Shown here: piece by piece, positions 1 through 15,868 of the stretch
Layout: each line of letters begins with the position of its first letter
How positions within the stretch are numbered: the first letter of the stretch is position 1
Source of the DNA: Streptomyces sp. B21-105
GTDB taxonomy: Bacteria; Actinomycetota; Actinomycetes; Streptomycetales; Streptomycetaceae
Length of the DNA: 64,000 bases
Direction of reading: 5' to 3'
NCBI RefSeq assembly: GCF_036898465.1
Contig: NZ_JARUMJ010000001.1
Coordinates: forward strand, 2,914,001 to 2,978,000
Made by a program: the position numbers and the translations under genes
Notes under the pieces: model-generated
What the model was told of the DNA's origin: nothing
Database searches by the model: none
What the model saw: only the letters and a program-made list of their open reading frames with translations

Positions 1-406
1 AGTCCCTTTGAGCGTATGGGTGAGAGGGGAAGTCTGTGCGGCGGTCGGAGAAGACGGGCAGCATGTACCGCCGGACGGGATCGGCGTAGAAGGCGTCGGT
101 CAGGCTCCCCGGCCCGCGCGGCGGCGCGTCCGGTGCCACGGTGTTGATCATATGCGGTGTGATGAGCAGCGACATCGTGGCACGTTCCTTTTGGTCGCGC
201 TCGAGGTCGGCGAAGAAGGAGTCGCTGAGGAGGTTGCCGGTCAGGGCACGCAGCTGGCCTATGTTCTTCACACAGTGCGTACGCTGCCACTGGACGCAGT
301 TCCACTCCGCTGCGGTGACGTCACGCCATCCCGGTAGCCGATGAGGATCGGGTTCCCGCGCTTCGCGGTATTGGTAGGAGTAGGGCTGCTGCAAGCTGTC
401 AGACAT
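1..406 (-). CDS. Lysine 2,3-aminomutase-like radical SAM protein (N-terminal part only)
   Basis: Translating the minus strand from ATG 404-406 gives an uninterrupted reading frame to the window edge, about 135 residues. It contains PGWRDVT, EWNCVQWQRTHCVKN, the segment DLERDQKERATMSLL, and later DAFYADPVRRYMLPVF with SHP. These match the N-terminal region of the KamA family (lysine or glutamate 2,3-aminomutases: PLP, SAM and a 4Fe-4S cluster; they move an amino group from C2 to C3). The CX3CX2C cluster motif would lie beyond the window, so radical SAM chemistry is inferred from the family. The gene begins 13 bp after the stop of the frameshifted small gene and is probably in the same operon. 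The true substrate is unknown. Confidence 0.8.
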   Translation of the reverse strand, partial: MSDSLQQPYSYQYREAREPDPHRLPGWRDVTAAEWNCVQWQRTHCVKNIGQLRALTGNLLSDSFFADLERDQKERATMSLLITPHMINTVAPDAPPRGPGSLTDAFYADPVRRYMLPVFSDRRTDFPSHPYAQRD

Positions 407-419
407 ACGTTGAGAAGCC

Positions 420-721
420 TCACTGATCCACATCGAGGTTCGTTCGGCGTGCTGCTGCGCGAACGGCCTCGGCGTAGGGGGCGTCGGCAGCGCGTGTGTC
501 TGGATCAAGGTCCTTGTACGGGACCAGGGCACCACGGGCGCTGTTCACTACTGCATCCACGCGGTCCAGGCATTGTGAATGTCTTCGTCGGTAACCTGTT
601 CTCCCTTAGCCTGCAGCAGCACGGCGTAGATGCGGAACAGGTCGTCAGAGTCTGCAGGAGGCTTGGCAGGCGGGGAGAGGCAGGACCGGATCAGGTCGGC
701 GAGGCGATCGAGGTAGGTCAC
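420..721 (-). pseudogene. Small DUF7701-like protein gene with a frameshift
   Basis: Reading starts at GTG 719-721, which overlaps the stop of the upstream membrane-protein gene (GTGA), and gives 57 residues ending IHNAWTAWMQ-stop at 548. Immediately beyond, in another frame, the sequence continues VNSARGALVPYKDLDP and DAPYAEAVRAAARR to TGA 420-422. Joined, the two parts resemble the roughly 95-residue actinobacterial family I recall as DUF7701 (pattern LFRxYAVLxxAKG, HNAWxAWM, LVPFxxL, DxPFxxAIRxAA). A one-base change near 550-555 therefore appears to split the gene; programmed frameshifting or a sequencing error is also possible. Function unknown. The family name is from memory; the split itself is seen directly. 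Confidence 0.7.
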
Positions 722-1188
722 ACGGTCAGTGTGCCTACAAACAGGATCAGGTGCGCTACAGCGAACACCAGAGGCACCACGCGTTCGGAGGCACCCAACT
801 CCACGTAGCGCTTGCGCTGGCTGGGGGTCGGTTCGCTCTTCAGGGCCTGCCATTCGTGAGTGTAGATCTTGACCGAGAGGTCTTCCTCCAGCTTGTTTAT
901 GACGGTGAATTTAGCGGTGTTGAGGTTTCGGTAACTGCGAAGCTGCATCCACCAGGTGGCAGACAAGGTGCAGCCGGCCAAGGCCACGGCCAGGGACACC
1001 CACCAAGGAGACTGCGAGAGCTTCGGGGTCCCGAAGCCGATCAGGGTGACGAGCGCGGACTGCACTGAGAGGAAGAAGGCGTTGGCGCTTCCACGACGCG
1101 CCGAGACTCGGTCGGCCATTTCCACGGCGAGTTTGTAGAGGTCGAGTACCTCCGACCGTTCCAGCGGTTCAGGCTGTTTGTTCACCAT
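718..1188 (-). CDS. Small multi-pass membrane protein, RipA/SLATT-like
   Basis: 156 residues. The N-terminal segment LYKLAVEMADRVSARR followed by a hydrophobic stretch (about 35-55), a second membrane segment (about 62-82) and a C-terminal one (about 136-156) give a three-helix membrane protein with a charged middle region. The 'YKLxVEMADRxSARR' signature matches proteins I know under the name RipA family octameric membrane protein; the layout also resembles SLATT proteins, which occur beside nucleotide-signalling defence genes. No catalytic residues are visible. It is the first gene of the minus-strand operon and is translationally coupled to the DUF7701-like gene. Role unknown; a membrane pore or sensor is only a guess from the fold class. 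Confidence 0.75.
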   Translation of the reverse strand: MVNKQPEPLERSEVLDLYKLAVEMADRVSARRGSANAFFLSVQSALVTLIGFGTPKLSQSPWWVSLAVALAGCTLSATWWMQLRSYRNLNTAKFTVINKLEEDLSVKIYTHEWQALKSEPTPSQRKRYVELGASERVVPLVFAVAHLILFVGTLTV

Positions 1189-1430: not shown

Positions 1431-2381
1431 ATGCGGATCGCGGTGGATGCCGACACCGGGCAGCCCCTGATCGTCGGCGACGGCAGATCGTGGTCGGTGG
1501 CCGAACTTCTGCCGGATGTCCCTTCGATCAGGTCCGCAACCATCGCCGATGTGATCGCCGCCTGGGCTGAGTTGGGCCCCCGCTGCGAGCGCGCGATCTC
1601 CGGTGCCGGTCCGTTCGTCCCCGGCCGGGTTCGCAGGTTGGGACCGCCGGCTGGTCCGGCCACTAAGATCATCTGTGCGATCGACAACTACCGCGACCAC
1701 GCTGCGGAATTCGCCACCGAGATCTTTCCGAAGCCGATATTCTTCCTCAAGCCGGCGACCACGCTCATCGGGGAGGGCGCCACTGTTCTGCTGCCGCAAA
1801 ACGCTCGTCGCGTCGACTACGAGTTAGAGCTGGCCACCGTCATCGGCACCCGATGCCGTGACGTTCGCCCGCAGGACGCTGCGGAGGTCATCTTCGGCTA
1901 CACCGTGTTTCTGGACATGTCCGCCCGCGACTTCCGCTCGATCCCCTACACCTGGTTCGGGATGAAGGCGTGGGACACGTTTGGGCCGATCGGGCCTTAC
2001 GTGGTCGAAAAGCAGGATATCGGGGAGGCACAGGCGCTCAGGATGACGCTGACCGTCAATGGCGAGACCAGGATGACCGGCCACACCGGCGACATGATCT
2101 TCTCCGTCGCCGATCTGGTCTCTGCGGCCTCCGAGGTCGTCACACTCATGCCCGGCGATGTCATAGCCACGGGCACCATGGCGGGCGTCTGCCAGGCCGA
2201 GCACGGCGACGAGGTCGAGGCGACGATCGAGGAGACCGGGACCCTGCGAGTCAAGGTCGCGCGATCGGACGCGGCGACCCACTGGCACGATCGCTCGTTC
2301 CCGGAACAGTACGCGTCTTTCCGGGATCAGCCGCGCAGCGACAGTGGGCCCGACCCGATCGCCCCAGCTGATGGCGAGTGA
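1431..2381 (+). CDS. Fumarylacetoacetate hydrolase (FAH) family protein
   Basis: 316 residues from ATG 1431, chosen because GGGAG lies 6-10 bases upstream; an upstream in-frame ATG at 1272 adds a non-conserved arginine-rich leader. The family signatures are present: DNYRDHAAE (85-93), FFLKPATTLIG (104-114), the acidic metal-binding patch VDYELELATVIG (E131, E133) and FLDMSARDF (D162). FAH-fold enzymes hydrolyse or decarboxylate C-C bonds in 2,4-dioxo acids using Mg2+ or Ca2+. The substrate cannot be read from the sequence. It is the first gene of the plus-strand cluster; the aminotransferase start follows 10 bp after its stop, with its ribosome site immediately behind the stop codon. Confidence 0.85.
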   Translation: MRIAVDADTGQPLIVGDGRSWSVAELLPDVPSIRSATIADVIAAWAELGPRCERAISGAGPFVPGRVRRLGPPAGPATKIICAIDNYRDHAAEFATEIFPKPIFFLKPATTLIGEGATVLLPQNARRVDYELELATVIGTRCRDVRPQDAAEVIFGYTVFLDMSARDFRSIPYTWFGMKAWDTFGPIGPYVVEKQDIGEAQALRMTLTVNGETRMTGHTGDMIFSVADLVSAASEVVTLMPGDVIATGTMAGVCQAEHGDEVEATIEETGTLRVKVARSDAATHWHDRSFPEQYASFRDQPRSDSGPDPIAPADGE

Positions 2382-2390
2382 GGAGATCGG

Positions 2391-3560
2391 GTGGACGTAG
2401 CCGAATATCTGTCCCACCGCGTGGCGTCCACGGCCGAGCCACCGGACGAGGTCAGCCTGCCGGACGGCGTCATCGACGCGTCGTTCGGCGAGCCCGATCC
2501 CGCTCTCTTCCCGCTCGACCTGATCAGGGACGCCGCGTCGGCCGTCCTGGCCGCGCCGTCCGCTGCACTGCAGTACTCGCCCCTGCGCGGGCATACGAAC
2601 CTCATCGAGGCCGTCGCGACGTGGACGCGCCCCCAGGCGGAACCGGCCGAGATGGTGCTCACCAGCGGCTCGATCCCCGCTTTGCTGCTGCTCACCCACG
2701 CAATGGTGGATCCGGGGGACACCGTACTGTTCGAAGATCCCGGCTATTTCCGCGCGAGCGCGATCCTGAGGGCGCACGGAGCGAACCTGTTGCCGCTACG
2801 GCACACGCGAGACGGTCTCGACCTGGACGCGATGCGGCATGCGTTACCCACCGGGCGGACGCTGAGGAGCTTTGCGTACGTTCACCCGTCGTTCCAGAAC
2901 CCGAGCGGCTACACGTGGTCGTTGGAGGAACGCCGGGAGTTCCTCGCGTTCTGTGCACAGCGTGGGATCGTCGTCGTGGAGGACACCGCCTACGACGAAC
3001 TCTGGTGCGCCGAGCCGCCGCCGCCCTCGCTGCGTTCCCTCGCTGATGGTCACCCGGTCATCCAGATCGGCACGTTGTCGAAGATCATTGCACCCGGCAT
3101 GGGCGTCGGCTGGATCATCGCGCCGGCCGCGCTCGCGTCTGTTCTGGTTGACAACCGGGTCGAGTTCGGTGGCGTCGGTGGTCTGACGAGCGCCATGGCG
3201 GCGGCCGTCCTGCGTGACGCGCGGTTCGGCACGCATGTGCGCGACATGCGCCGCGAGTACGCGGAACGCTGCCGGCGGTTCGCCGACGGGGTCCGATACA
3301 TCCCCGAACTCGCCGACTGGTCTCCGCCGGGCGGCGGTTACTATGCCTGGCTGCCGTTGCCCGAGACGGTCAGCGACGACTGCTTCGCCCGTGTGGCGCT
3401 CTCGGCAGGCCTGCGAGTGCTTGAAGGCCGCCATTTCTTCCAACCGAGCGACCGCGAGCGGGACTTCGTCCGCCTGACGTTCGGTCGCCTTGCTCCGCAG
3501 GCCGTCGACAGAGCCGTGTCGCGGCTTGCGACGACGTATCGCCGGATCGGCGGCCGATGA
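2391..3560 (+). CDS. Class I/II PLP-dependent aminotransferase (MocR-like catalytic domain)
   Basis: 389 residues from GTG 2391, with AGGAG directly after the previous stop. Fold-type I features are in order: LQYSPLRGH (about 60-68), TSGSIPALLL (91-100), EDPGYF (115-120), the N170-P171 pair in PSFQNPSGY, VVEDTAYDEL (D198, Y201) and the PLP lysine K231 in GTLSKIIAPG. The sequence looks like the catalytic half of MocR-type proteins but has no N-terminal winged helix, so it is probably a free-standing enzyme. It would transfer an amino group to or from an amino acid or an amino-bearing intermediate of the cluster. Specificity is not visible. The stop overlaps the next start by four bases (ATGA). 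Confidence 0.9.
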   Translation: MDVAEYLSHRVASTAEPPDEVSLPDGVIDASFGEPDPALFPLDLIRDAASAVLAAPSAALQYSPLRGHTNLIEAVATWTRPQAEPAEMVLTSGSIPALLLLTHAMVDPGDTVLFEDPGYFRASAILRAHGANLLPLRHTRDGLDLDAMRHALPTGRTLRSFAYVHPSFQNPSGYTWSLEERREFLAFCAQRGIVVVEDTAYDELWCAEPPPPSLRSLADGHPVIQIGTLSKIIAPGMGVGWIIAPAALASVLVDNRVEFGGVGGLTSAMAAAVLRDARFGTHVRDMRREYAERCRRFADGVRYIPELADWSPPGGGYYAWLPLPETVSDDCFARVALSAGLRVLEGRHFFQPSDRERDFVRLTFGRLAPQAVDRAVSRLATTYRRIGGR

Positions 3561-4348
3561 CCATGGCCCCGTTCTTGCACGTCCTGCTGCTGGACGAGCG
3601 TGGCGTCGTCCGGTCCATGGCCGCGAACCTCTCCGAGCGGGAGGTTGCCGACTTCGTCCGGCAGGTGGGCCGCTGCAAGCCGTTCCAGTTCAAGGCCGCT
3701 GTCATCAACCCGCTGGAGGCCCGGACCATCCAGGTGCGCCAGACGGACCGGCCGACGTCGGACATGCTGGAGGCGGCCCGCGCCGCGCGCCGGCTCGTAC
3801 CGGCTGACGATGTCAACGCCGACGCGAGCGACGAGATCCGGGCCGCGCTGATGGGGCGGGAGGTGACCGATCGCCACATCAGCCAGGAGGCGCAGAGCCG
3901 CAGCCCCGCGAAACCCGATCCTTCGATCGGCGTCTTCATCGTCCACGGCCACGAGGAACTGGCCCTCAAGACCGTAGAGCGCATCCTGACGCAGGACTTC
4001 GGGGTCGCCGTCCGGATCCTGAAGGAGCAGGCGGGCGGGGGCATGACACTCATCGAGAAATTCGAGCATGCCGCGACGGAGGTGGACTATGCCATCGTCC
4101 TGCTGACTGCCGACGACTTCGTCCGCAACGGTGATGAGGAGTACTGGCAGCCGCGTCCCAACGTGCTTTTCGAACTCGGCTGGTTCTGTGGCCGACTGGG
4201 GCGCGATCGGGTGTGCCTGCTTGCGCAGCGTGGCCTGCGCATCCTCAGCGACATGCGAGGCGTGATCTGTCATGAGTTCACCAACGACGTGGCCGAGTGC
4301 ACGCTGCCGCTGTTGCGCGAGCTCAAGGCCGCCAAGTATGTGGATTGA
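3557..4348 (+). CDS. TIR-like domain nucleotide-binding protein
   Basis: 263 residues. The C-terminal half (about 124-258) has the TIR-like fold of Pfam PF10137: SIGVFIVHGHEE, LKEQAGGGMTLIEKFE, DYAIVLLTADDF, RPNVLFELGWFCGRLGRDRVCLL, with E206 in the FELG motif at the position of the proposed catalytic glutamate. Homologous domains serve as NAD-degrading effectors or nucleotide sensors in CBASS (Cap12-like) and other antiphage systems. The first 120 residues are not a domain I recognise. The gene is coupled (ATGA) to the aminotransferase and sits in the middle of metabolic genes, which is unusual. NAD cleavage is inferred from the family, not shown. Confidence 0.85.
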   Translation: MTMAPFLHVLLLDERGVVRSMAANLSEREVADFVRQVGRCKPFQFKAAVINPLEARTIQVRQTDRPTSDMLEAARAARRLVPADDVNADASDEIRAALMGREVTDRHISQEAQSRSPAKPDPSIGVFIVHGHEELALKTVERILTQDFGVAVRILKEQAGGGMTLIEKFEHAATEVDYAIVLLTADDFVRNGDEEYWQPRPNVLFELGWFCGRLGRDRVCLLAQRGLRILSDMRGVICHEFTNDVAECTLPLLRELKAAKYVD

Positions 4349-4370
4349 CCGGGCGTCCGGAGGATAACGA

Positions 4371-5498
4371 GTGGGAGAGAGAGCCTTGCGAGTAACCGCG
4401 CGACAGCTTGGCGTCGTCCTGGGGCAGTTGCCCACCGGACCGCGGAACACAATCACCGATGTTCCCGGCGTCCTCGTCGGACACGAGACGATCATCGAAG
4501 GCCAGGGCGCGCACCGGCCCGGCATCGGCCCGGTGCGCACTGGCGTCACCGTGATCCAGCCCCACCCGGGCGACACCTATCTGGACCGCGTCTCCGCGGC
4601 GGTGGAGTGGTTCAACGGCTTCGGTGAATGTCTCGGGGCCGGTCTGGTGCACGAGTTCGGGCTCATCATCGGCCCGATCACACTGACCAACTCCTTCAAC
4701 GTCTACAGGGTGGCTGACGCGTTGCAGGACTGGAGCATTCGGCAGCATCCGGAAGTGGGCATCGACACACACGGTTTGCTCTGTCTCGTCGCCGAGTGCA
4801 GCGACGACTATCTGAACGACATTCAGGGCAGGCACGTGCATGCGGAACATGTGGAGCGAGCCCTGGGCGCTGTCACGGCCGACGCCCTCCAGGGAGCGGT
4901 CGGCGCCGGCACCGGCATGGAGGTGTACGGCTTCAAGGGCGGCATCGGCACCTCCTCGCGGGTGGTGGATGCCGAAGACCGGGCCTACACGGTGGGAGTC
5001 CTGGCGTTGGCCAACCACGGCATCAAGGAACAGCTGACCATCCTGGGTGTCCCGGTCGGCCGTGAGCTGGAGCGGCATCCGGCTGGACGCCCCGACCGCC
5101 GTGAGGACGGTTCGTGCGTCCTCGTCGTGGCCACCGACGCACCTCTGCTCCCACATCAGCTCCGGCGCCTTGCCCGGCGGTCCTTTCTCGGCATGGCCCG
5201 CACCGGCGCAACTGCCCGCAACGGCAGCGGAGATCTCGCCATCGCGTTCTCCACCACAAACCGGATCATGCGTGACCCAGGACCCGTCGCGACGTTCCCG
5301 TTCGTACCAGACTTCCACGAAGACGTGATCAACCCGCTGTTCAGCGCCGTGTGCGAGGCCTCCGAGGAGGCCATCGTCAATGCACTGTTCACGGCCGAGT
5401 CGATGACCGGGAGGGACGGCCACCATCTGGAAGCCCTCCCCATCGAGCCGACCCTGGCAATGCTGCGCAAGCACGGACAACTCGCCGCGCATGCCTGA
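4371..5498 (+). CDS. P1 family peptidase (S58, DmpA/BapA-like aminopeptidase)
   Basis: 375 residues from GTG 4371, with GGAGG seven bases upstream. Landmarks of the S58 Ntn-hydrolase family: NTITDVPGVLVGH near the N-terminus, GAGTGMEVYGFKGGIGTSSR (178-197), LALANHG, and EDGSCVLVVATDAPL with S248 as the expected autocleavage residue that becomes the N-terminal nucleophile. Family members release N-terminal residues from small peptides; some (BapA, DmpA) cleave beta-peptides or D-residues. No signal peptide is visible, so it is likely cytoplasmic. The next gene starts eight bases before its stop. It might process a peptide made by the ATP-grasp ligases downstream, or confer self-protection; both are inferences. 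Confidence 0.9.
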   Translation: MGERALRVTARQLGVVLGQLPTGPRNTITDVPGVLVGHETIIEGQGAHRPGIGPVRTGVTVIQPHPGDTYLDRVSAAVEWFNGFGECLGAGLVHEFGLIIGPITLTNSFNVYRVADALQDWSIRQHPEVGIDTHGLLCLVAECSDDYLNDIQGRHVHAEHVERALGAVTADALQGAVGAGTGMEVYGFKGGIGTSSRVVDAEDRAYTVGVLALANHGIKEQLTILGVPVGRELERHPAGRPDRREDGSCVLVVATDAPLLPHQLRRLARRSFLGMARTGATARNGSGDLAIAFSTTNRIMRDPGPVATFPFVPDFHEDVINPLFSAVCEASEEAIVNALFTAESMTGRDGHHLEALPIEPTLAMLRKHGQLAAHA

Positions 5499-6822
5499 CC
5501 GGTCGCCTCCCGGCCCGGGATTCGCAGGGCGACTTCGGGCGGTGGAGATCCCCGGCGCGCACCTCGCTGCGGATCTCCACTTCAACGATGCCGCGCCGGT
5601 CCGGCTTCGCATGGTCGCGCGCGAGCCCCTGAACCCGCCCGGGGCGGCCGTCCGCGGGCTCTTCGCCGCCCTCTGCGCAACGTTCGCCGGACAGCTGTCG
5701 CTGGCGCGGACCATCGAGATCGACGGGCCGGAGCTCCCGCTCAGTGCGATGGGCTGGCTGGAGGAACTCCGGCGCTACCTCTACGCCGTCCGCTCGTACC
5801 GGGACGGGCGTGCCGTCGCGGCGTACGGGTGCTTCGCCGATCGTTCCGCGGGCCCGGACCCCTCCCACCTGGACCGCGACGACTCTCGAACCGCGCTGCT
5901 GTTTCTGTCCGGCGGTATCGACTCGGCGCTGAGCGCGCTGCTGCTCGATGCAAACGGCTATCAGGTAGTGCCCGTCCATGTGACCGGCGTCAACGGCGAT
6001 GTCGCGGTGAGCGAGACGGAGGAACGGGCGGCCACCCGGGTGGCGGGCGAACTCGGCCTGCCACTGACGGTCTTCGACATCGTCTCGGAGCCGCCCCTGG
6101 CAGAGCTGGCAGCAGGCTGGACCACCGTTCCCCCCTCATTCCCGAGCGTGAACACGGTGCCGCACGGCCGCGAACTGCTCCTGCTGTCTGCCGCTGCCTG
6201 GTGGTGCGAGAGCGCCGGGACCGCGGCCTCAGTCGCCTTCGGTGTGGAGAACAGCGGGTGGTCCGACACGTTCCGGTTGAACGGCCACTCGTATCCCCGT
6301 TCGGACACCCAGAGCGAGCGTGGCCTGACGGCACTTCAGCGACTCTCGTCCTATTGCCAGCCGGGCATGCTGACGCTCGTCTCCCCGGTCGCGGGCTTGA
6401 CCGAGTACCGCAAGTTCGTCGACTTCTCGCGGTGGCGTCCCGACCTGCTGAACGTCTGCTCGTTCTGTTTCTGGGGCGTTTGTTGTGGTCTCTGCCAGAA
6501 GTGTTCGCTGTACTACGTCATCGGCCGTAGCCTCGGCTCGCTCGGCCCGCAGTACCGTAACAGCCCCATGAAGCTGCCGAGCGAGTACCTCGTCGATGCG
6601 TTGCGGCGCCCGCTCGACCCCCGCTACCGTGAGCGACAAGTCGCACTGATCGACATCGACAGCGCCGGGCTGTGGCGCGACGGTGAGTCGTCGCTCAGGT
6701 CTCTGGTTCGGAAGGTACGCCCCACCCTGCTCCACCATCGTGACGCGTGGCGCCGCGATCTGCTGAGGGCTCGATACAACGTATCGTTGCCGGCCAAGTT
6801 CGCCCTGAAACGATGGGGGTAG
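5491..6822 (+). CDS. QueC-like PP-loop ATP pyrophosphatase
   Basis: 443 residues, about twice the length of a housekeeping QueC. The adenylation PP-loop is LLFLSGGIDSALSA (SGGIDS 140-145), followed by a Rossmann-like region and a cysteine cluster CSFCFWGVCCGLCQKC (C323, C326, C331, C332, C335, C338), which matches the CGxCxxC zinc site of 7-cyano-7-deazaguanine synthase with extra cysteines. The first 130 residues are an unassigned domain. Related QueC-like proteins occur in the Qat and type IV CBASS defence systems and in small-molecule pathways; all adenylate a carboxylate or amide for nucleophilic attack. No other preQ0 genes are nearby, so true queuosine synthesis is unlikely. It overlaps the peptidase gene by eight bases. 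Confidence 0.8.
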   Translation: MPDRSPPGPGFAGRLRAVEIPGAHLAADLHFNDAAPVRLRMVAREPLNPPGAAVRGLFAALCATFAGQLSLARTIEIDGPELPLSAMGWLEELRRYLYAVRSYRDGRAVAAYGCFADRSAGPDPSHLDRDDSRTALLFLSGGIDSALSALLLDANGYQVVPVHVTGVNGDVAVSETEERAATRVAGELGLPLTVFDIVSEPPLAELAAGWTTVPPSFPSVNTVPHGRELLLLSAAAWWCESAGTAASVAFGVENSGWSDTFRLNGHSYPRSDTQSERGLTALQRLSSYCQPGMLTLVSPVAGLTEYRKFVDFSRWRPDLLNVCSFCFWGVCCGLCQKCSLYYVIGRSLGSLGPQYRNSPMKLPSEYLVDALRRPLDPRYRERQVALIDIDSAGLWRDGESSLRSLVRKVRPTLLHHRDAWRRDLLRARYNVSLPAKFALKRWG

Positions 6823-6826
6823 CACG

Positions 6827-7798
6827 ATGAGTACGATGTCGACCCGCCAATCCATGCCCAGACTCGGCATGGGAACCTGGGCGTTCTCGGGGGACGTCTG
6901 GGGGGAACAGCCGGAGGCCGACTCCACGGCCGCCGTACTGGAAGCCCTCGATCGCGGTTGCACTCTGATCGACACGGCCCAGTCCTATGGTTCCGGCCGC
7001 AGCGAGCGCATCGTCGGCGCGGCTGTGAAGGGCCGGAGGGGCGATGTCGAGATCGTCACCAAGGTCCCTCCGCGCAACGAAGTCTGGGGGCCGCCGCCGG
7101 AGCAGCCGATTGGGGGCGGCTACGACGCTGCCTGGATCCGCGACTGCTGCGAGCAGAGCCTGCGCAACCTCGGCACCGACCACGTCGACACGCTGCTGCT
7201 GCACACCTGGAGCCGAGGATGGCCGGTGGACGGCGAGTGGCGCGATGCGCTGGAGGAGCTGAAGCAGGCAGGCAAGATCCGTGGCTACGGCATCTCAGTC
7301 GACGACCTCGGCACGTCGGACGCCGATGCGGCGATCGACGCCGGGCTGGACGCCGTCCAGCTGGTCTACAACGTCTTCTATCAGGAGGCGGCCGAGGGAA
7401 CCCTGGAGCAGGCGGCCGCAGCGGGCACTGCGGTCATCGCACGCTCGCCGCTGCAGGCGGGCATCCTCACCGGCAAGTACCAGGACCGTGCTTTTCCCGC
7501 GGGCGACTGGCGCGCCGACTGGACGCCCGACGACTGGCTGGAGCAGAACCGGAGCATGGTCCGGGAAGTGACATCGATCGCCGATGAGTTCGATATGACC
7601 ATCAGGGAACTGGCATTGCGCTTCGCACTCAGCCAACCAAAAATTGACACGGTCATCGTCGGCTGCCGCACCCGTGAGCAGGCTGCTGAGAATTTCTCGG
7701 CAGCCGCCCGGGAAGCACTCGCCCCGGGCCTTCTCGGCCGACTCACCAGTCTCTGGTCGGACGGGACAGTGCGGGGCACGTACCTCGGCTCGTCCTGA
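6827..7798 (+). CDS. Aldo/keto reductase
   Basis: 323 residues. The classical AKR tetrad is complete: D49 and Y54 in LIDTAQSYGSGRSE, K79 in IVTKVPP, and H126 in LLLHTW. The C-terminal NADPH-binding segment is also present (ALSQPKIDTVIVGCRTREQAAEN). It should reduce an aldehyde or ketone with NADPH in the cytoplasm. It begins four bases after the QueC-like gene and is followed by the STAND ATPase after 21 bases, so it belongs to the same transcript. An in-frame ATG nine bases downstream is an alternative start. Confidence 0.92.
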   Translation: MSTMSTRQSMPRLGMGTWAFSGDVWGEQPEADSTAAVLEALDRGCTLIDTAQSYGSGRSERIVGAAVKGRRGDVEIVTKVPPRNEVWGPPPEQPIGGGYDAAWIRDCCEQSLRNLGTDHVDTLLLHTWSRGWPVDGEWRDALEELKQAGKIRGYGISVDDLGTSDADAAIDAGLDAVQLVYNVFYQEAAEGTLEQAAAAGTAVIARSPLQAGILTGKYQDRAFPAGDWRADWTPDDWLEQNRSMVREVTSIADEFDMTIRELALRFALSQPKIDTVIVGCRTREQAAENFSAAAREALAPGLLGRLTSLWSDGTVRGTYLGSS

Positions 7799-7819
7799 AC
7801 CAGACCGGCGAGCTGGACC

Positions 7820-10594
7820 ATGAACGCACAGGCATCGAACCATGAGGGCGGTGGGCAGGCCACCGAGGCGATCCGTACCCGGCTGACCAATGAGGAGTTT
7901 CTGCGCCGTCGTCAGCTCCAGCAGTTCACCAACCGTGATGCCGAGAGGCGTGCGTTGGCGGCGGCCGTCAAACCCGACAGTCAGACGAGGCTGCTGCACC
8001 TGACCGGCATCGCGGGCATAGGAAAGAGCACGGTCCTCACCGCGGGGGAGGACTACTGCCGCCGCCATGGCATCGTCTACGCCCGGGTGAACCTCGGCGG
8101 CCAGCGGACGCCGGAGACGATCCTCGCCGAGCTCTTCGAGCAGCTCGCCGCGACTGACTCGGCGCTGCCCGGCGGCCAGACGTTCGCCAACGGCAGCTTC
8201 GCTCGGGAGCTGGCCCGGCTGCGGTCCGTTCGCAGCCTCGTGCAGAGCACGGAATCGGCCTCGCAGGACACCCGGGTGATGGCGGCGGGAAGCTACGCCC
8301 CGGTGCGTCAGGGCGAGTCGGCGGTGGTGGCCGAGCGGGTGCTCGCCGAGGTCGCGGAGATCGTCGGCCGGGGCGACGCGGAGTTCCTGTTCAACCCGGG
8401 CGAAGCCCTCACCCACGCCCTCATCGAGGACGTCGAGGCCTGGCACCGGGGCGACTCGCGCGTCTGTCTCTTCTTCGACCAGTACGAACAGGCCGGGACC
8501 TCCGTCGACGAGTGGATCCGCAACAGCCTTTTCCCGGGGCTCAGTTCGGCGCTGCTGGTCTTCGGCGGACGCGGGCAGCTCGCGCCCGGGTGGACTCGAT
8601 GGCGGTCGATGACTCAGGAGATCGCGATCGAGCCGTTGAGTAACGGCGACATGAGCCTGCTCATGGAAAAGGCGGCGGTCCGGGATTCGGCGATCGTCCG
8701 ACGGATCATGGAGCTTGCCGCCGGCCTGCCGCTCGCCGCCGGCATTGCAGTCGACCTGCTCAACGAGACGGGAGGCAAGCTGGAACTCGGCCGAGTGCAG
8801 GGCCGGGAAGTGGTCAAGCAACTGGTCGACCTCTTCCTCGCGGACGTACCACAGGATCTGGTGACCTGGGTGCAACGTGCCGCCATCGTACGGTCGTTCA
8901 ACGAGGACACTCTCCTGCAGATGGCCACCGATCCGGGCTTCGACCCGACACCCGTCTTCGAGCATCTGGCGAGACTCTCGATCACTCAGCTGCACGCCCG
9001 AGGACTGGCCATCCACGACGCCGTGCGGGCTTTCCTCAACCAGGACCTGCAGGTGCGAGCCCCCACCAGGTACGCCAACCTCCACCATCGCGCCTACCAG
9101 TACTACTCGCTGCTGCTCGGGAAGGGGCCGTCCGCGGAGGACCAGCGGGAGCTGCAGATCGAGCAGCTGTACCACCAGATCCGCTACGACCCCGACGCGG
9201 GCCTCGTCGCGATCCGCGAGCTAATCGAAAGCACCACCCTGCTGTCGCAGTTGGAGCTTTCCGAGGCGGTGCTCTCGCTGGCCACCGAGGCCACCTGGAG
9301 CGAGGCACAGTCCCTCTGGGTGCGTTACATGGACGCGCTGGTCCGCCAGCAGCGCAATACCGACAACCGCGGCTCGGCCCAGATCCTCGACGAGATCCTC
9401 ACCGACCCCCGTTGCACCGATCCCGATCTGCGGGTACGGGCGGCCGCGTACCTGGCGATGAACACCTGGTACCTCGGTGACTTCCAGAAGGCCCTGCACT
9501 GGGCCGCTGTGGCCATCGACAACGCGCAGCGAGTGGAGCGGGCCACGGGGTTCGAGCACATCGCCGTCGAGGCCAAGGCTCTGACCCAAGACCGGATGGG
9601 CCAGTTCGCCGAGGCGGTCGACACCCAGCAACGCTTGCTGGAGAGCGCACGCGCCACAGGCGACAAGGTCGCGGAGGCCTGGGGCCTGAACAACCTGGGC
9701 TACTTGAAGTGGCACACCGGTGACTGGCAGGAGGCCGTCGGTCACCTGAGTGAGTCGCGAAACACCTTCGAGGAGTTGCGGCACCCCTATGGCGCCACAT
9801 ACCCGCAGTGTCATCTCGCGCTGGTGCACATCGCGTGTGGCCAGCCGGACGAAGCCCGGGACCTGTTGCAGACGACCCTTGAGCTGTGCCGGGAACGCGG
9901 CAACCGGGAGATAGAGGCCAAGTGCCTGCAGAACCTCTCCGACTACTGGCTGGCGGTCGGCGACCCGAGGCAGGCTGAGGCGGCCGCGCTGGAGGCCCTT
10001 GGCATCTCGCGAGACCTGGACCTGCCCTTCTACGAGTGCGACACCTTGCGGCGCCTGGGCGAGGCGCGGCTCCGCTTCGACGCCGCCCAGGCCCACGCCG
10101 ACTTCACCGCCGGCAGCGACCTGGCGGCAGGCATGCACGCCCATTACACCCTGCTGCGCTGCCGACTCGGCCAGGCCCAGGCGGAGCTGGCCGGCGGTTC
10201 TGTCTCACCGGAGCTGCGCGCCGCCCTGCTCGACGCGGCGCGGGACGACCGTCAAGGGTACGGGGAACTGCGCTCCCGTGTCGCAGTGTTCACCGGCAGG
10301 CTCTGCTTGGCCGACGGTGATGCCGGGGCCGCCGACCTGTTCGTCGAGGCGCTGCATGCCGCCTCGACCTGCAATGCGGTCGCTCTGGAGCGCTGTGCGG
10401 AGGCGATCATCGCCTGCTGCGCCGACGCTGGCCGTCCCGACCTGGCCGACGATGTACGGGGGCGGTGGACGGGGGCCCTGACCGTACCCACGACGGTTTC
10501 GGCCGTCGAGCTCGCCCAGGCCCGCATCGGCGACTTGCGCCCCTGCCTGGCACCGGAGGTCATGCTGGAACGCATGAGGAGAACCAGTCGGTGA
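7820..10594 (+). CDS. STAND-type ATPase with C-terminal TPR repeats
   Basis: 924 residues. A P-loop GIAGIGKST lies at 63-71 and a Walker B strand VCLFFDQYEQ at 215-224, followed by a winged-helix-like region (about 350-420, ending LAIHDAVRAFLNQDL). From about 530 to 830 helical repeats of TPR type occur (for example AEAWGLNNLGYLKWHTGDWQ, AKCLQNLSDYWLAVGDPRQA). This order is that of STAND signalling ATPases, which use the repeat domain to sense a ligand or protein and the NTPase to oligomerise. No DNA-binding or effector domain is evident at either end, so it may act as a cluster regulator or as a sensor working with the TIR-like protein. Its stop overlaps the next start (GTGA). Confidence 0.85.
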   Translation: MNAQASNHEGGGQATEAIRTRLTNEEFLRRRQLQQFTNRDAERRALAAAVKPDSQTRLLHLTGIAGIGKSTVLTAGEDYCRRHGIVYARVNLGGQRTPETILAELFEQLAATDSALPGGQTFANGSFARELARLRSVRSLVQSTESASQDTRVMAAGSYAPVRQGESAVVAERVLAEVAEIVGRGDAEFLFNPGEALTHALIEDVEAWHRGDSRVCLFFDQYEQAGTSVDEWIRNSLFPGLSSALLVFGGRGQLAPGWTRWRSMTQEIAIEPLSNGDMSLLMEKAAVRDSAIVRRIMELAAGLPLAAGIAVDLLNETGGKLELGRVQGREVVKQLVDLFLADVPQDLVTWVQRAAIVRSFNEDTLLQMATDPGFDPTPVFEHLARLSITQLHARGLAIHDAVRAFLNQDLQVRAPTRYANLHHRAYQYYSLLLGKGPSAEDQRELQIEQLYHQIRYDPDAGLVAIRELIESTTLLSQLELSEAVLSLATEATWSEAQSLWVRYMDALVRQQRNTDNRGSAQILDEILTDPRCTDPDLRVRAAAYLAMNTWYLGDFQKALHWAAVAIDNAQRVERATGFEHIAVEAKALTQDRMGQFAEAVDTQQRLLESARATGDKVAEAWGLNNLGYLKWHTGDWQEAVGHLSESRNTFEELRHPYGATYPQCHLALVHIACGQPDEARDLLQTTLELCRERGNREIEAKCLQNLSDYWLAVGDPRQAEAAALEALGISRDLDLPFYECDTLRRLGEARLRFDAAQAHADFTAGSDLAAGMHAHYTLLRCRLGQAQAELAGGSVSPELRAALLDAARDDRQGYGELRSRVAVFTGRLCLADGDAGAADLFVEALHAASTCNAVALERCAEAIIACCADAGRPDLADDVRGRWTGALTVPTTVSAVELAQARIGDLRPCLAPEVMLERMRRTSR

Positions 10595-11904
10595 AGCGGC
10601 GGGACTGTTTCGTCGCCAACATCAGCGAACCCTTCCTGCCGTTCCTTCGGCGCGAGACCGATCCGGCGCGTCGTAACCACATGATCGCCGAGGAGCATGC
10701 TCTCTCGGAACGAACGGCACTGTGGGGCGGGGTCGACAAGATCTGCCTGCTGCCCCAGCCACCGCACACCATCGGGCTCCTCGAATCCCGGTTCGGCTAC
10801 CGAGTGTCGGCCAAGGCCCTCGAAACCCCCGACGATCGTCTGAGCCGTGCCATCACACGGTCGGACGACGCGATCGCCTGGCTGGCCGCAGCCGGGCGAA
10901 CCGCTCCGCTCGCCCTCAGCAGTTACGCGGCCACTGAGGACTTCGTCGACCTGGTAGCGACCCTTCGCAGCAGCGGGGTCGACTTCGCCGCAGACGACGC
11001 CACTGTGAGCCCGGAGGGCTTGAGCGTCCTGCGCCGGATCGAGAGCAAGTCTGGTTTCCGGCAGGTCGCGGCCGTCCTGCTGAACGGCTTGCCCTGTCGG
11101 CTTCCTGCGGGCACGACCTGCGAATCGCCAGGCGCCGCGCTGGGCGCTGCGCGCCGGCTGAGCCGGGCCACCGGTGCCGTGATGATCAAAGCGGACGACG
11201 GTGAAGGTGGGTTCGGCAACGTGGCCCTTTCTGCTCGCGAACTGGAGCGGATCGATACGACCCGCCTGTTGGAGGTCTGCCCGTTCCTGGGGCTTCGGTC
11301 GGTGGTCGAGCAGCTCATACCGTGCGTCGGTGCGCCGTCCGTCGAGTTCTTCGTGCCGTCGGCGCCGAGGTCGCCCGTGGTGACATACGCGTGCACCCAG
11401 ATCTTCGACCGGAACAACTACTTCATCGGCGTCCGGCTGAGCCCTGCGGACCGCGACGCTGCCTGGTTCGAACCGCTCGCCGAGTTCGGCTGCCGCCTCG
11501 CGGCGCACCTGCAACAGCGCGGCTTTCGCGGCCACTTCGACATCGACGCCATCGTGACGGCCACCGGTGACCTCTACGTCGTCGAGGCGAACCTGCGCCG
11601 GACCGGCGGCACTCACGTGCATGACTTCGCCCGCACGGTCCTCGGCAGTGACTACGCGTCCCGCGTCGAGATACTCAGCCGGTCGATCACCATACCGCCG
11701 TGCTCCCCGGCCGAGGCGCTGCGCCGGCTGGAACCTCTGCTGGTCGATCCCGGATCCGGCACCGGTGTGCTGCCGGTCGTCGTCGGTACAGCTCAGGATG
11801 GCGCAGTCGAGCTGATGGTCTTCGCAAGGGACGAACACGGCCTGCAGGAGACCCTCGCGGCCGCCGTCGGAACCCTGACCGTGGGAGGCGCAGCCCATGG
11901 CTAG
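10591..11904 (+). CDS. ATP-grasp domain protein, first of a pair
   Basis: 437 residues from GTG 10591, which overlaps the preceding TGA; a longer in-frame start at 10465 lies inside the ATPase gene and is unlikely. ATP-grasp features: the lysine and glycine-rich loop AVMIKADDGEGGFGN (K200, 204-210), an adenine-region strand SVVEQLIPC (about 237-245), and metal ligands at FDIDAIV ... YVVEANLRRTGG (E332, N334). Such enzymes form an acyl phosphate and then an amide or thioester bond. The N-terminal 190 residues are a pre-ATP-grasp region of unknown partner. It is immediately followed by a second ATP-grasp gene, overlapping by eight bases, suggesting two consecutive ligations. Confidence 0.82.
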   Translation: MKRRDCFVANISEPFLPFLRRETDPARRNHMIAEEHALSERTALWGGVDKICLLPQPPHTIGLLESRFGYRVSAKALETPDDRLSRAITRSDDAIAWLAAAGRTAPLALSSYAATEDFVDLVATLRSSGVDFAADDATVSPEGLSVLRRIESKSGFRQVAAVLLNGLPCRLPAGTTCESPGAALGAARRLSRATGAVMIKADDGEGGFGNVALSARELERIDTTRLLEVCPFLGLRSVVEQLIPCVGAPSVEFFVPSAPRSPVVTYACTQIFDRNNYFIGVRLSPADRDAAWFEPLAEFGCRLAAHLQQRGFRGHFDIDAIVTATGDLYVVEANLRRTGGTHVHDFARTVLGSDYASRVEILSRSITIPPCSPAEALRRLEPLLVDPGSGTGVLPVVVGTAQDGAVELMVFARDEHGLQETLAAAVGTLTVGGAAHG

Positions 11905-13174
11905 GGGGAATTTCCCGGCAGTCGTGTGGATCGGACCGCGCGCGGCGGACGGGGCCGTCGTCGGCGCGGGTGACCACCCGGTCGCGGTCTTCTCCGCAGA
12001 TACGGCTCAGCCGCACGGGCCGGGTCGGACCGCACCGTCCCTGGAGACGCGTACCGGCGTACGGCAACGGTGGGGAGCGGCCAGCGTGGGCGACGTGGTG
12101 GCGGCCTTCGGCGCGGAGATCCGCCAGGCGGCAAGGCGAGCCGCCGCGGTGCTGCCCTACACAATGGACGAAGCGCTGCCCGCTCTGATCGGCGACACCG
12201 GCGCGAAACTACTCGGGCCCGCCCCGCGCCTGCGGCACTGGCTGGACGACAAGCGTGCGGCGCTGCAGGTCTTCGACGGCGTTGGTTCACCCAGGCTTGC
12301 CTACCGGGAGATGTCCGCGAGGCAGCTCCCGAGCCTGGCGGCAAGGGACCGCATCGGCCGCCGACTCGTGGTGCAGATCCCGCGCGCCTCCGGCGGCAAG
12401 GGCACCCACTTCGTCCGGGCGGACGCGGAGAGCCTTGGCCGACTCGCCTCACGACTGGCTGCCGGCACCGTGCTGGTCACGGACTACGAGGAGGGCTCGT
12501 ACTCGCTCAACGCACACGTCGCTGTGCTGCCGGGGAGAATCCTGGTCGCCCCGATGTCGGTCCAGCTCGTCGGTATCGCGCCGTGCACGTCGCACGCGGC
12601 CGCGTACTGCGGAAACAACTTTGCGGCCATGGCGGACATCGGCGCGGGCGTGGTGAGCCGCGCACGGGAGATCACCACCAGGGTGGGCGAGTCGCTCGCG
12701 GCTCGGGGGTACCGGGGCTTCGCGGGCCTCGACCTGCTAGTCACCGCGCGCCCGGACGGGATCTTTCCCATCGACCTCAATCCCCGTCTCCAGGCATCGA
12801 CGAGGGCCTTGGCTTTGGCCGAGCGCTCCGCCGGCAACGGGCCGGGCTTCGTTGACCTCGCCGTCGGCGCCGAACTAGGCGTTTACGGTCGTGAAGACCT
12901 GGACCGTTACGTGGCCCCGGGCGCACTCGCCATGGCTCAGCTGGTCTTCTACAACCGGTCCTCCTACTCACTGAGCCGGAGACCCGGGGCCGCCCGGACG
13001 ACGGCAATCGTCGACGGCTGGTCGCTGACCGGTCTCGCTCCGGCAGGCGTACGGGTGGAGAGCGGAGCGGTCCTGGCCACCGCGACGCGATGCTCCTCGG
13101 ACCGGGCCCCGCTCGAGACGGCAGCACAGGAGCTGGTGGTTTCGGTAGAGGACGGCTACGAAGCCGCTCAATAG
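11897..13174 (+). CDS. ATP-grasp domain protein, second of a pair
   Basis: 425 residues from ATG 11897, with GGGAGG eight bases upstream inside the preceding gene. The ATP-grasp loop is LVVQIPRASGGKGTHFV (SGGKGT 165-170), with the adenine strand TVLVTDYEEG (191-200) and the metal-binding end GFAGLDLLV ... PIDLNPRLQAST (D279, N295, R297). The two tandem proteins share this fold but little sequence, so they probably use different substrates. Amide ligation of amino acids or short peptides is the usual activity. Last gene of the plus-strand run; it ends inside the 3' end of the convergent radical SAM gene (7-bp overlap). Confidence 0.82.
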   Translation: MARGNFPAVVWIGPRAADGAVVGAGDHPVAVFSADTAQPHGPGRTAPSLETRTGVRQRWGAASVGDVVAAFGAEIRQAARRAAAVLPYTMDEALPALIGDTGAKLLGPAPRLRHWLDDKRAALQVFDGVGSPRLAYREMSARQLPSLAARDRIGRRLVVQIPRASGGKGTHFVRADAESLGRLASRLAAGTVLVTDYEEGSYSLNAHVAVLPGRILVAPMSVQLVGIAPCTSHAAAYCGNNFAAMADIGAGVVSRAREITTRVGESLAARGYRGFAGLDLLVTARPDGIFPIDLNPRLQASTRALALAERSAGNGPGFVDLAVGAELGVYGREDLDRYVAPGALAMAQLVFYNRSSYSLSRRPGAARTTAIVDGWSLTGLAPAGVRVESGAVLATATRCSSDRAPLETAAQELVVSVEDGYEAAQ

Positions 13175-14346
13175 CTTCGGTATGCCAGTCCTGTGGGCAG
13201 GGAAAGGACATTGTTCTGGCATCCGACGCAGGTCGGGCCGAGAACCAGCCCGGCGCCGGTCGCGATCTCCTGGCACTGCTCATACAGGTTCCAGTACTCC
13301 GGGCCGGTCAAACCCCGCCGGTCGGCCAGCGTGGTACCGGCGAGGGGCCGGAACGGCGAGATGATCGGCATGACACCGAGTTCGCAGAGCCTGGTGACCC
13401 CGCGAACGGTCTCCTCGACCGGCTCCAGCCCGGCGATGAGAATGGAACGGGCCCGGTACGGTCCGAAGAGCCGCGCCGCGTGGCTCAGCGCCTCCAAGTA
13501 CCGACCCCTGCCGATCAGATCGCGTTTGCCGGGGATGAAACCGTCCCACGCGGCGTCGCTCCAGAACTCCAGGTTCATGCCGAGTTCGTCCACCCCCGCG
13601 TCGAAGAGCTCGTCGATGTGCCGGTTGTGGAGTGGTGCGGCGATCATGACGTAGACGGGGATGTCGTAGCGGCTCTTCACGATCCGGGTGAGCCGGGCGG
13701 CAAGGGACGCCCCCATGTCGTCGCCGGGCGGCGTACCACCGCCGATGAGCAGGTGGCGAGCCGGGCGAACACTGTCCGACCATGCCTGTTCCACCACCTC
13801 CAGGAAATGCCGCTCCAGCTTGCGGGAGGCGTCTGCGTCGTAGTTGAAGCCGATCGAGCAGTACGCGCAGCGCTTGTGGCGTGCCCAGAAGCTGCACCCC
13901 GGGCCGGTCATGCCAAAACATAGCCGGTCGGGCGAGCACATCTGCGCGATGCGGGAAAGCGGGATGGTGCCGTCCGAGACCGTGCGGCCGTAGTACTCCG
14001 GCTCGGGAACTCCGACGACGTCATGTCTCTTCCTGCCTGGTGCGCTGAGGTACAGCCGTCCATCGGCTGCTTCGAGGCGGTATGGGGAGGACACGGCGAT
14101 CGCCTCGCGGACGGGAACGTTGACGTACAAGCCAAGGTCCTCATCGAGGGCAAGATCGAGGCCGCCAGACACGCCGGAGCGGGTTCTGAGGATTGTCGTG
14201 CCGGCACGGTGCCCGGTCCCCGATGCGAAGAGGAACGTCTCGGCGCTGGGGTCGAGCCGGGCGCCCCGAGCCAGCAGATCGAACTTCAGCCGGCCCAGCT
14301 CGGTCAGCCGCCGCCACCGTTCCGGTGACCAGCCGTCAGGATCCAT
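13168..14346 (-). CDS. Radical SAM protein with a CX8CX2C cluster motif
   Basis: 392 residues from ATG 14346, chosen because GGGAGG is eight bases upstream; ATG 14352 is an alternative and the longer ORF to 14505 lacks support. The only suitable cluster motif is C151-SFWARHKR-C160-AY-C163, followed by an aromatic-rich segment, then HLLIGGGTPPGDDMG (the GGE-like SAM-binding strand), ELGMNLEFWSD and SILIAGLEPVEE. A C-terminal GPTCVGCQNN could hold an auxiliary site. The first and second cysteines are eight residues apart instead of three, so the family is not a standard one; I do not recognise its product. Cleavage of SAM to a deoxyadenosyl radical is inferred. It is convergent with the ATP-grasp genes. 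Confidence 0.82.
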   Translation of the reverse strand: MDPDGWSPERWRRLTELGRLKFDLLARGARLDPSAETFLFASGTGHRAGTTILRTRSGVSGGLDLALDEDLGLYVNVPVREAIAVSSPYRLEAADGRLYLSAPGRKRHDVVGVPEPEYYGRTVSDGTIPLSRIAQMCSPDRLCFGMTGPGCSFWARHKRCAYCSIGFNYDADASRKLERHFLEVVEQAWSDSVRPARHLLIGGGTPPGDDMGASLAARLTRIVKSRYDIPVYVMIAAPLHNRHIDELFDAGVDELGMNLEFWSDAAWDGFIPGKRDLIGRGRYLEALSHAARLFGPYRARSILIAGLEPVEETVRGVTRLCELGVMPIISPFRPLAGTTLADRRGLTGPEYWNLYEQCQEIATGAGLVLGPTCVGCQNNVLSLPTGLAYRSY

Positions 14347-15849: not shown

Positions 15850-15868
15850 CAGGCGAAGCCGCAGGTGG

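Follow-up and report, generated by a model that had tools for sequence, protein, structure and literature searches.

A gene cluster combining predicted amino acid chemistry with STAND, TIR and 8xMP immune-type proteins on a mobile element at rnpB in Streptomyces sp. B21-105

In a 64,000-nucleotide stretch of the genome of the soil bacterium Streptomyces sp. B21-105 (contig NZ_JARUMJ010000001.1, positions 2,914,001 to 2,978,000; hereafter the window), we describe a gene cluster in which enzymes of small-molecule chemistry are interleaved with proteins of immune type. The cluster sits on an element of about 21.5 kb that is bounded by 43-bp direct repeats of the 3' end of rnpB. The full gene set was seen only here and in Streptomyces stelliscabiei, and the exact set is nearly unique. 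Tentatively, with a probability of roughly 0.37, we propose that the cluster makes an intracellular, probably beta-lysine-derived molecule tied to an immune module of STAND, TIR and 8xMP proteins; for both product and function we infer from the gene families. Coordinates are positions in the window, and negative values are bases to the left of it (Table 1).

The preliminary description of this DNA, made from the sequence alone, reported nine plus-strand genes in a tight run with a convergent radical SAM gene, and this is confirmed by family matches and coordinates. Genes 1 to 10 encode, in order, FAH, aminotransferase, TIR, S58, QueC-like, aldo/keto reductase (AKR), STAND-TPR, two ATP-grasp and radical SAM proteins; all ten are present, with matches above chance in scans with Pfam, NCBIfam and PADLOC models. 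The first nine span 1431-13174 and their junctions are indeed overlapping or short (+9, -4, +22, -8, +4, +21, -4 and -8 bp, thus from -8 to +22 bp), while the radical SAM gene overlaps the second ATP-grasp gene by 7 bp. Both the TIR and the STAND gene lie inside this single tightly spaced run, which speaks for a joint function. Gene coordinates agree with those first given apart from start codon choices: an alternative start 51 bp downstream is possible for the QueC-like gene, and for the radical SAM gene, on the minus strand, either 14346 or 14352 is the start. What had been delimited as ten genes proved to be part of a larger set, which extends leftward on the minus strand through 8xMP, DUF7701 and KamA-type genes and lies inside a mobile element. 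A promoter scan of 1100-1600 found none.

Table 1. Features of the element and its integration site in the window
Feature	Position	Strand	Matches and remarks
KamA/lysine 2,3-aminomutase-type radical SAM, N-terminal part	1..535; gene end at about -1033, outside the window	-	TIGR03820 E 1e-49; PDB 2a5h E 4e-40
DUF7701 open reading frame (ORF) between 8xMP and KamA	548..853 (longest ORF; true start probably later)	-	PF24792 E 5e-22
8xMP, octameric membrane protein family	718..1188	-	PF24838 E 1e-44
Gene 1, FAH-family hydrolase/isomerase	1431..2381	+	PF01557 E 2e-64
Gene 2, pyridoxal phosphate (PLP) aminotransferase class I/II, PdxR/MppQ-like	2391..3560	+	PF00155 E 8e-33
Gene 3, TIR, CAP12/Pycsar type, own N-terminal ~100 aa	3557..4348	+	PF10137 E 1.5e-33; PADLOC PDC-S35 E 1e-44; PDB Cap12 E 8e-10
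Gene 4, peptidase S58, DmpA/BapA type	4371..5498	+	PF03576 E 5e-109; PDB 2drh E 4e-102; 3n2w E 3e-77
Gene 5, QueC-like PP-loop enzyme with N- and C-terminal extensions	5491..6822	+	PF06508 E 2e-5, 24.5 bits vs cutoff 22
Gene 6, aldo/keto reductase (AKR)	6827..7798	+	PF00248 E 4e-57
Gene 7, STAND-type NTPase with TPRs	7820..10594	+	AAA_16 32.5 bits vs cutoff 32.6; TPR_12 E 2.5e-16; HaaT-like 48.7 bits
Gene 8, ATP-grasp peptide ligase, PGM1-like	10591..11904	+	PDB 8ynd E 1e-16; PGM1 E 3e-10
Gene 9, second ATP-grasp ligase	11897..13174	+	PF02655 23.0 bits vs 23.2; NF005096 (PRK06524) E 4e-21, far below model cutoff
Gene 10, variant radical SAM, CX8CX2C, C-terminal GPTCxxCQNN	13168..14346	-	NF045502 170.6 bits vs cutoff 125; TIGR04043 130 bits vs 303.7
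Right copy of 43-bp direct repeat	15851..15893	.	97.7% to left copy at -5659 to -5617; overlaps rnpB 3' end
rnpB (RNase P RNA), integration site	15872..16284	-	RF00010, 297.7 bits

Several assignments carry their own limits. Gene 7 possesses an NTPase with a Walker A motif (GIAGIGKS, at residue 63) and a B-like motif (LFFDQ, at 217) followed by superstructure-forming repeats, as is expected of a STAND protein, with AAA_16 lying 0.1 bit below its cutoff. Among the 25 matches listed for the aminotransferase no NCBIfam model reaches its own cutoff, and the first ATP-grasp protein is without a Pfam match. The radical SAM motif reads C159-x8-C168-x2-C171 (alignment A3). A plasmid search with the AKR returned 1436 matches, with scores of at most 114 bits among the five listed.

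The direct repeats of the target, together with a sharp break in sequence identity, mark the region as an integrative element. Its left repeat copy lies 5.66 kb to the left of the window. In a relative (G013) the distance from the left flank to rnpB is about 2.2 kb, as against 23.5 kb here, and about 1.2 kb of other sequence stands in the element's place, which represents a near-empty site. In S. stelliscabiei DSM 41803 (L002) about 20 kb of the element is 99.9% identical and the identity breaks at rnpB. The comparison, which begins at -4509 and covers the right end of the element in that species, revealed 17 differences from -4509 to 14.5 kb and none from 14.5 to 15.77 kb, beyond which, in the rnpB flank, identity drops to about 91%. 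Since some 20 kb is 99.9% identical while the flank stands at about 91%, the element moved recently, and on this sequence evidence the two hosts are probably different species that share it. Twelve genes were compared between them; all are intact, at 99.8-100% identity, and they show eight differences in total, too few for a reading of nonsynonymous against synonymous polymorphism (pN/pS). No integrase was recognised among the ORFs of the element that were scanned; a DDE transposase and a VbhA/Fic pair occupy its left part. This pair, an HTH_17/VbhA antitoxin with Fic, is found about 5.06-3.78 kb left of the window (L015, 14943-16222). The GC content is 64-70% over the first 16 kb of the window and 71-77% from 16 to 56 kb. 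The nearest relative at rnpB, G110 (L013/L014), has neither element sequence, the repeat excepted, nor the 40 kb left flank within about 30 kb. Because it shares the rnpB side and neither of these, rnpB may be an insertion hotspot.

Three sub-sets of the cluster recur elsewhere: a core of radical SAM enzyme, ATP-grasp ligase and STAND-like NTPase, the KamA/ligase pair, and TIR with 8xMP. For the core, searches with the radical SAM protein, in which the 8000 best-matching candidates were scored (as in the QueC-like search, whose pool held 5.8 billion proteins), gave 84 relatives, the named ones being from Amycolatopsis, Micromonospora, Nocardia, Granulosicoccus and Chloroflexota. Across 198 other Streptomyces genomes no match was better than E 4e-27. 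At E <= 1e-40 the protein was found in one of 344 other genomes of the class (G145), and a profile search also found it in G185, among three genomes of that family, so that three genomes have such a match, the host included. A phage search gave one match, at 24.5%. Plasmid matches to the radical SAM proteins of the window and of the G185 locus were, among the matches listed, of Nit1C type, other radical SAM proteins or unannotated; 373 of 517 plasmid records with a match to the radical SAM were from Klebsiella, and among those listed all but one of the Klebsiella entries were annotated as MSMEG_0568 family.

In G145 (locus L070) the genes run, all on the minus strand and with ends that touch or nearly do so where the starts are clear, as NTPase, serine hydrolase, methyltransferase, AKR, radical SAM, asparaginase II and ATP-grasp_3. 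The radical SAM protein is 55% identical to that of the window and the AKR 38% identical to gene 6 (204 bits); the NTPase is a 1027-amino acid P-loop protein with AAA_14 above its cutoff and the AAA_16 and nSTAND models below theirs. In G185 (locus L075) the genes are all on the plus strand and code for a flavin adenine dinucleotide (FAD) enzyme, radical SAM, OTCase-like protein, SIR2_2, ATP-grasp_3, a 662-amino acid protein without Pfam match and nSTAND1, the last carrying pentapeptide repeats. Its ATP-grasp protein shows 37% identity to gene 9 over about 140 amino acids. PRK06524 is the best NCBIfam model for the ATP-grasp proteins of all three loci, well below cutoff (L070 E 6e-6, L075 E 1e-7), and gene 9 is linked to the L070 ATP-grasp protein only through that of L075. 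No match to the QueC-like protein was found in L070, L075 or their extensions L108 and L109. PADLOC matched the L070 NTPase to mad8 (E 1.5e-7) and methyltransferase to mad2 (E 4e-7) and the L075 nSTAND1 to mad8 (E 6e-4), parts of MADS, and the L075 SIR2 protein to ThsA; these matches are weak and name no system. By eye, the genes that follow the nSTAND1/SIR2/radical SAM run in L075/L108 (G185:C63) resemble an HSP90-type ATPase and a DGQHR-like protein, and the run may lie in a defence island. A tyrosine recombinase/integrase gene, likewise recognised by eye, lies not far from the L070 run (L109 2044-3144, G145:C95), and that run may also be on an island.

A fourth case is indirect. For protein P0022 (63% identical to the radical SAM) and protein P0091 (49% identical to the STAND) the longest contig given is in both cases 52,610 bases, and no other contig size is common to the 83 radical SAM and 7 STAND entries; from the equal size we infer that they lie on one contig. 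As a control, a crude regular-expression motif count gave one STAND-like ORF in 430,865 bases of 24 other loci. These loci were not random, most having been chosen around matches to g3, g8, g9 or Nit1C and four being flanks, and the count errs both ways: its second match in the window, at 51553-54378, is an ABC ATPase, and the underlying gene caller drops ORFs of lower GC content at third codon positions, a similar setting having missed the TIR of locus L083.

The beta-lysine side of the proposal begins with the KamA-type gene. It scores 169 bits against a TIGR03820 cutoff of 525, and because this equivalog cutoff is not reached, lysine can only be presumed as its substrate. The CxxxCxxC cysteines and two Asp align with PDB 2a5h, with the Lys in a motif just past the aligned part; we take these Asp/Asp/Lys positions to be the holders of lysine and PLP in lysine 2,3-aminomutase. 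A pair of KamA and PGM1-type ligase genes, adjacent or one gene apart, recurs in four loci (L033, L034, L089, L090). The window KamA is 80% identical to a gene of Streptomyces sp. SAT1 that lies one gene from a PGM1-type ligase, and 86% (L090) and 75% (L089) identical to genes with such a ligase close by, these being two of six Streptomyces gene 8 loci tested by tblastn, with a seventh locus (L071) outside that test. It is also 65% identical to a gene in the vioC/vioD cluster of S. globosus, presumably of streptothricin type, and a Thioflavicoccus plasmid carries a remote KamA (29.5%) directly beside a gene remotely related to gene 8. MFS or ABC genes are present in the KamA clusters of SAT1 and S. 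globosus. In the window, no exporter was recognised among the element proteins scanned, and no adenylation or condensation domain of a non-ribosomal peptide synthetase (NRPS) was matched among the cluster proteins scanned; a large ORF with two ABC ATPase stretches of ECF type (51553-54378) lies outside the gene cluster. The closest structures to the S58 peptidase are the D-aminopeptidase 2drh and the beta-peptidyl aminopeptidase 3n2w, a kinship that would suit a peptide containing a beta-amino acid. Of the modified peptide or nucleoside first suggested as product, the peptide thus finds backing in the KamA aminomutase and S58; no nucleoside pathway was recognised, and a nucleoside antibiotic was dropped for want of any supporting family.

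The TIR protein (PF10137, 115.8 bits against a cutoff of 24.7) groups with the CAP12 and PycTIR effectors, and among solved structures Cap12 is closest to it. The known prokaryotic TIR effectors of these two families, CAP12 and Pycsar, respond to cyclic nucleotides. Scans of the cluster proteins and of those to its left with Pfam, PADLOC or NCBIfam models gave no match to a CD-NTase family. In a plasmid search with 8xMP, 27 records matched, and in three of the six that were read 8xMP adjoins a ThsB-type TIR gene; in the other three, one of them unannotated, no TIR was seen. The three plasmids with both genes (L103, L106 and L107) are from unlike hosts, Paenarthrobacter, Novosphingobium and Polaromonas, and the genes touch or lie a few bp apart. 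In L083 (9374-11062, G109:C1), which was chosen because of its TIR, an 8xMP 70% identical to that of the window precedes a CAP12-type TIR that has an additional stretch at its C terminus; from its sequence this is a candidate compact two-gene defence pair. In the window 2.4 kb separates the two genes, which lie on opposite strands and have biosynthetic genes both between them and on either side.

Gene 5 was aligned with Escherichia coli QueC by hhalign at a probability of 94.6, the core occupying about residues 133-341 of 443, flanked by long N- and C-terminal extensions that recall QatC. SGGxDS and the CxGxCxxC part of the zinc site are invariant in a five-sequence alignment. Against the PDB, its profile matches Cap9 (E 6e-7) barely ahead of MnmA (E 1e-6), and the only PADLOC model obtained was one named QueC (E 1e-4). 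The stretch aligned to QueC YPDC, the meaning of which and of related QueC/Cap9 motifs is treated in PMC13329287 and PMC13279940, reads YPRSDTQSE, two residues longer, in a weakly aligned region; its D and TQSE are invariant and its Tyr is not kept in P0004. Because this stretch differs, the substrate may differ from carboxydeazaguanine, the alignment being too weak to exclude that compound.

This enzyme also shows how rare the set is. Among the 8000 best-matching candidates scored, its relatives form four clusters at E <= 0.001, namely its own and those at 88%, 38% and 33% identity; none was found in the 198 other Streptomyces genomes, and a two-pattern scan of the genome collection gave one record. 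Plasmids gave no match to it or to its relative P0003, and viral contigs none to the QueC-like and radical SAM alignments. At E <= 0.001 any match to gene 8 was found in 40 of the same 198 genomes, to gene 9 in 10 and to the TIR in 8, all far weaker than the host's own copy. The QueC-like relatives have no contig size in common with the radical SAM list, and the sole one shared with the STAND list, 10,580,661, belongs to the host's own lineage.

From these observations we propose that the cluster travels as cargo on an element that moved recently and sits at the 3' end of rnpB, and that the cluster couples a small-molecule pathway to an immune-type module. KamA would turn lysine into beta-lysine, which the two ATP-grasp ligases would join to another amino acid or amine, while the QueC-like enzyme might activate a carboxylate with ATP and yield an amide, nitrile or conjugate. 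The AKR, aminotransferase, FAH protein and variant radical SAM enzyme would tailor the product and the S58 peptidase would trim or destroy it. The lack of any recognised exporter in the element makes it most likely that the product remains intracellular. There the STAND-TPR protein would sense a threat and the TIR NADase would act with 8xMP as its membrane partner, the molecule being either a ligand that sets or triggers the STAND, TIR and 8xMP proteins or a poison that firing of the STAND would set free. The sensing or cell-death role suggested at the outset fits the gene families present, and that first interpretation is partly borne out.

A number of observations weigh against this proposal. 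The strongest objection is that each sub-set also occurs without the others: no TIR or STAND match was obtained at the KamA/ligase loci L033, L034, L089 and L090, and TIR/8xMP pairs exist without comparable chemistry genes. The preliminary description had asked whether TIR-like and STAND genes always accompany these enzymes, and the outcome is mixed, a STAND-like NTPase being kept with radical SAM and ATP-grasp in L070 and L075, while the TIR is not (SIR2 replaces it in L075 and no NADase was recognised in L070) and the aminomutase/ligase pair lacks matches to either. The recurrence of the core rests on three read loci, L070 and L075 being from two species of one genus, and on a coincidence of contig size. 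The L070 NTPase is only tentatively a STAND, because AAA_14 alone passes its cutoff, and it has no significant similarity to that of the window, with which the L075 NTPase gave no pair at E <= 0.01. The L075 radical SAM is only 30% identical to that of the window, and gene 9 has no direct tblastn match to the L070 ATP-grasp protein at E <= 1e-4. For P0090 of S. phaeochromogenes (89% identical to the STAND) the contig size is missing from both the QueC-like and the radical SAM lists, which does not prove absence because one contig size is listed per cluster. By motif count, L076-L080, around ATP-grasp proteins like gene 9, contain no STAND, three of them being short contigs. No radical SAM match at E <= 1e-60 was found in 35 + 307 further genomes, an empty result that is uninformative without a known positive. 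The argument from the missing exporter is weakened because the Thioflavicoccus KamA/ligase locus is also without an annotated one. Finally, the STAND protein also resembles the TPR regions of AfsR and HaaT, which would fit a regulator of a natural-product cluster.

This last point leads to a reading nearly as likely as our own, in which the locus is a natural-product cluster of ordinary kind whose product would be a peptide antibiotic containing beta-lysine, with the STAND-TPR protein as pathway regulator and TIR and 8xMP as passenger defence genes. The kinship of KamA to genes near PGM1-type ligases (75-86%) and in the vioC/vioD cluster (65%) is in its favour, as are an aminotransferase family that includes antibiotic enzymes and an S58 protein that could be a resistance peptidase; mobile elements, moreover, often collect unrelated cargo. 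It accounts less readily for the lack of a recognised exporter and of NRPS adenylation or condensation matches in the proteins scanned, for a TIR gene placed within the run between aminotransferase and S58, and for the return of a STAND-like NTPase with radical SAM and ATP-grasp in unlike clusters. Another alternative, that three unrelated cargo sets (KamA/ligase, TIR/8xMP and STAND/radical SAM) came together by chance with no joint function, agrees with the finding of every set elsewhere on its own. We consider it unlikely: genes of the different sets are mixed within a single run and overlap at their ends, and the 12 genes are intact in S. stelliscabiei, although so recent a transfer says nothing on long-term selection.

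It is also conceivable, if improbable, that the QueC-like enzyme works as Cap9 or Qat proteins do, joining a carboxylate from the pathway to the N terminus of a partner such as the TIR or STAND protein and so arming it. Cap9 is narrowly the best solved relative of its profile, SGGxDS and the zinc cysteines are kept, and its extensions recall QatC, in which N- and C-terminal extensions surround the QueC core; Cap9 has been shown, and QatC proposed, to act on partner proteins (PMC13279940 and PMC13329287). Against such conjugation, the cluster has no match to CD-NTase, QatA or QatD, and none of its ten proteins as called starts with the partner motif MGGS or MGTS, the start codons being uncertain; the absence of QueC-like matches from L070, L075, L108 and L109 likewise counts against it.

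When the locus is set beside known systems, partial likenesses emerge. With Type IV CBASS and qatABCD it shares a QueC-like enzyme, an immune-type TIR and, as in QatC, an extended QueC scaffold (PMC13279940 and PMC13329287). Its stretch weakly aligned to YPDC is two residues longer, and no partners were matched: Type IV CBASS was rejected since no CD-NTase match lies beside the QueC-like gene, and qatABCD since neither QatA or QatD nor any Qat-named profile was matched. The PADLOC check proposed earlier matched the TIR to PDC-S35 and gave no Qat-named match in the ten cluster proteins, the completeness of PADLOC's Qat models not having been checked. Nit1C (MSMEG_0568) clusters have a related radical SAM enzyme (about 30% identity), while here no nitrilase was matched and the score of 130 bits is below the MSMEG_0568 cutoff of 303.7, so that membership was rejected; the loci of Nit1C type that were read, L072 and L093 by eye and L097 through its annotation, showed no STAND. 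The beta-lysine-type clusters of S. globosus (vioC/vioD) and SAT1 (KamA/PGM1-ligase) likewise combine KamA, ATP-grasp proteins and tailoring enzymes. They have exporters, and in S. globosus NRPS parts, with no TIR annotated in the stretch read, whereas in the window TIR, 8xMP and STAND genes are present and no exporter was recognised. Thoeris-like pairs of TIR and membrane protein, in which 8xMP adjoins a ThsB-type TIR in plasmids and a CAP12-type TIR in L083, resemble the window in content, although there the two genes are not adjacent.

The closest parallel is provided by the FxSxx-COOH/VMAP-linked conflict systems of actinobacteria. PMC7159879 links AP-ATPase (STAND)-TPR and TIR proteins with radical SAM processing of a ribosomal peptide, and the early statement that no described system has such a mix must be qualified to this extent. 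In those systems the ribosomal peptide is cut by a metallopeptidase, whereas the window has enzymes of free amino acids (KamA, ATP-grasp, QueC-like); no precursor gene or metallopeptidase was recognised among the proteins scanned, small ORFs not all having been searched. The tie of STAND/TIR to radical SAM peptide processing is thus already in print. Among open-licence full texts, we found no paper on that version (KamA, ATP-grasp and QueC-like with STAND/TIR), on S58 with beta-lysine, or on Thoeris with an octameric membrane effector.

A wider interpretation, which we regard as unlikely, is a new form of immunity in which the messenger or warhead would be a built small molecule and not a nucleotide, in this cluster probably derived from beta-lysine and activated at a carboxylate by the QueC-like enzyme. 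A radical SAM/ATP-grasp pathway would make it in the cell, and its users would be a sensor of STAND type, a TIR or SIR2 NADase and a membrane protein; the first members of this kind would be the window, L070, L075 and the 52.6-kb contig. Looser pairings of chemistry and immunity in other bacteria are hints of defence that uses home-made chemistry. If our proposal is true, a TIR and a STAND protein joined on a mobile element to a multi-enzyme amino acid pathway, with no recognised cyclase, would mean either that immune signalling draws on a wider chemistry or that immune proteins guard a metabolite. The locus also offers a way into three families about which little is known: the clade of variant radical SAM enzymes, that of extended QueC-like proteins, and 8xMP.

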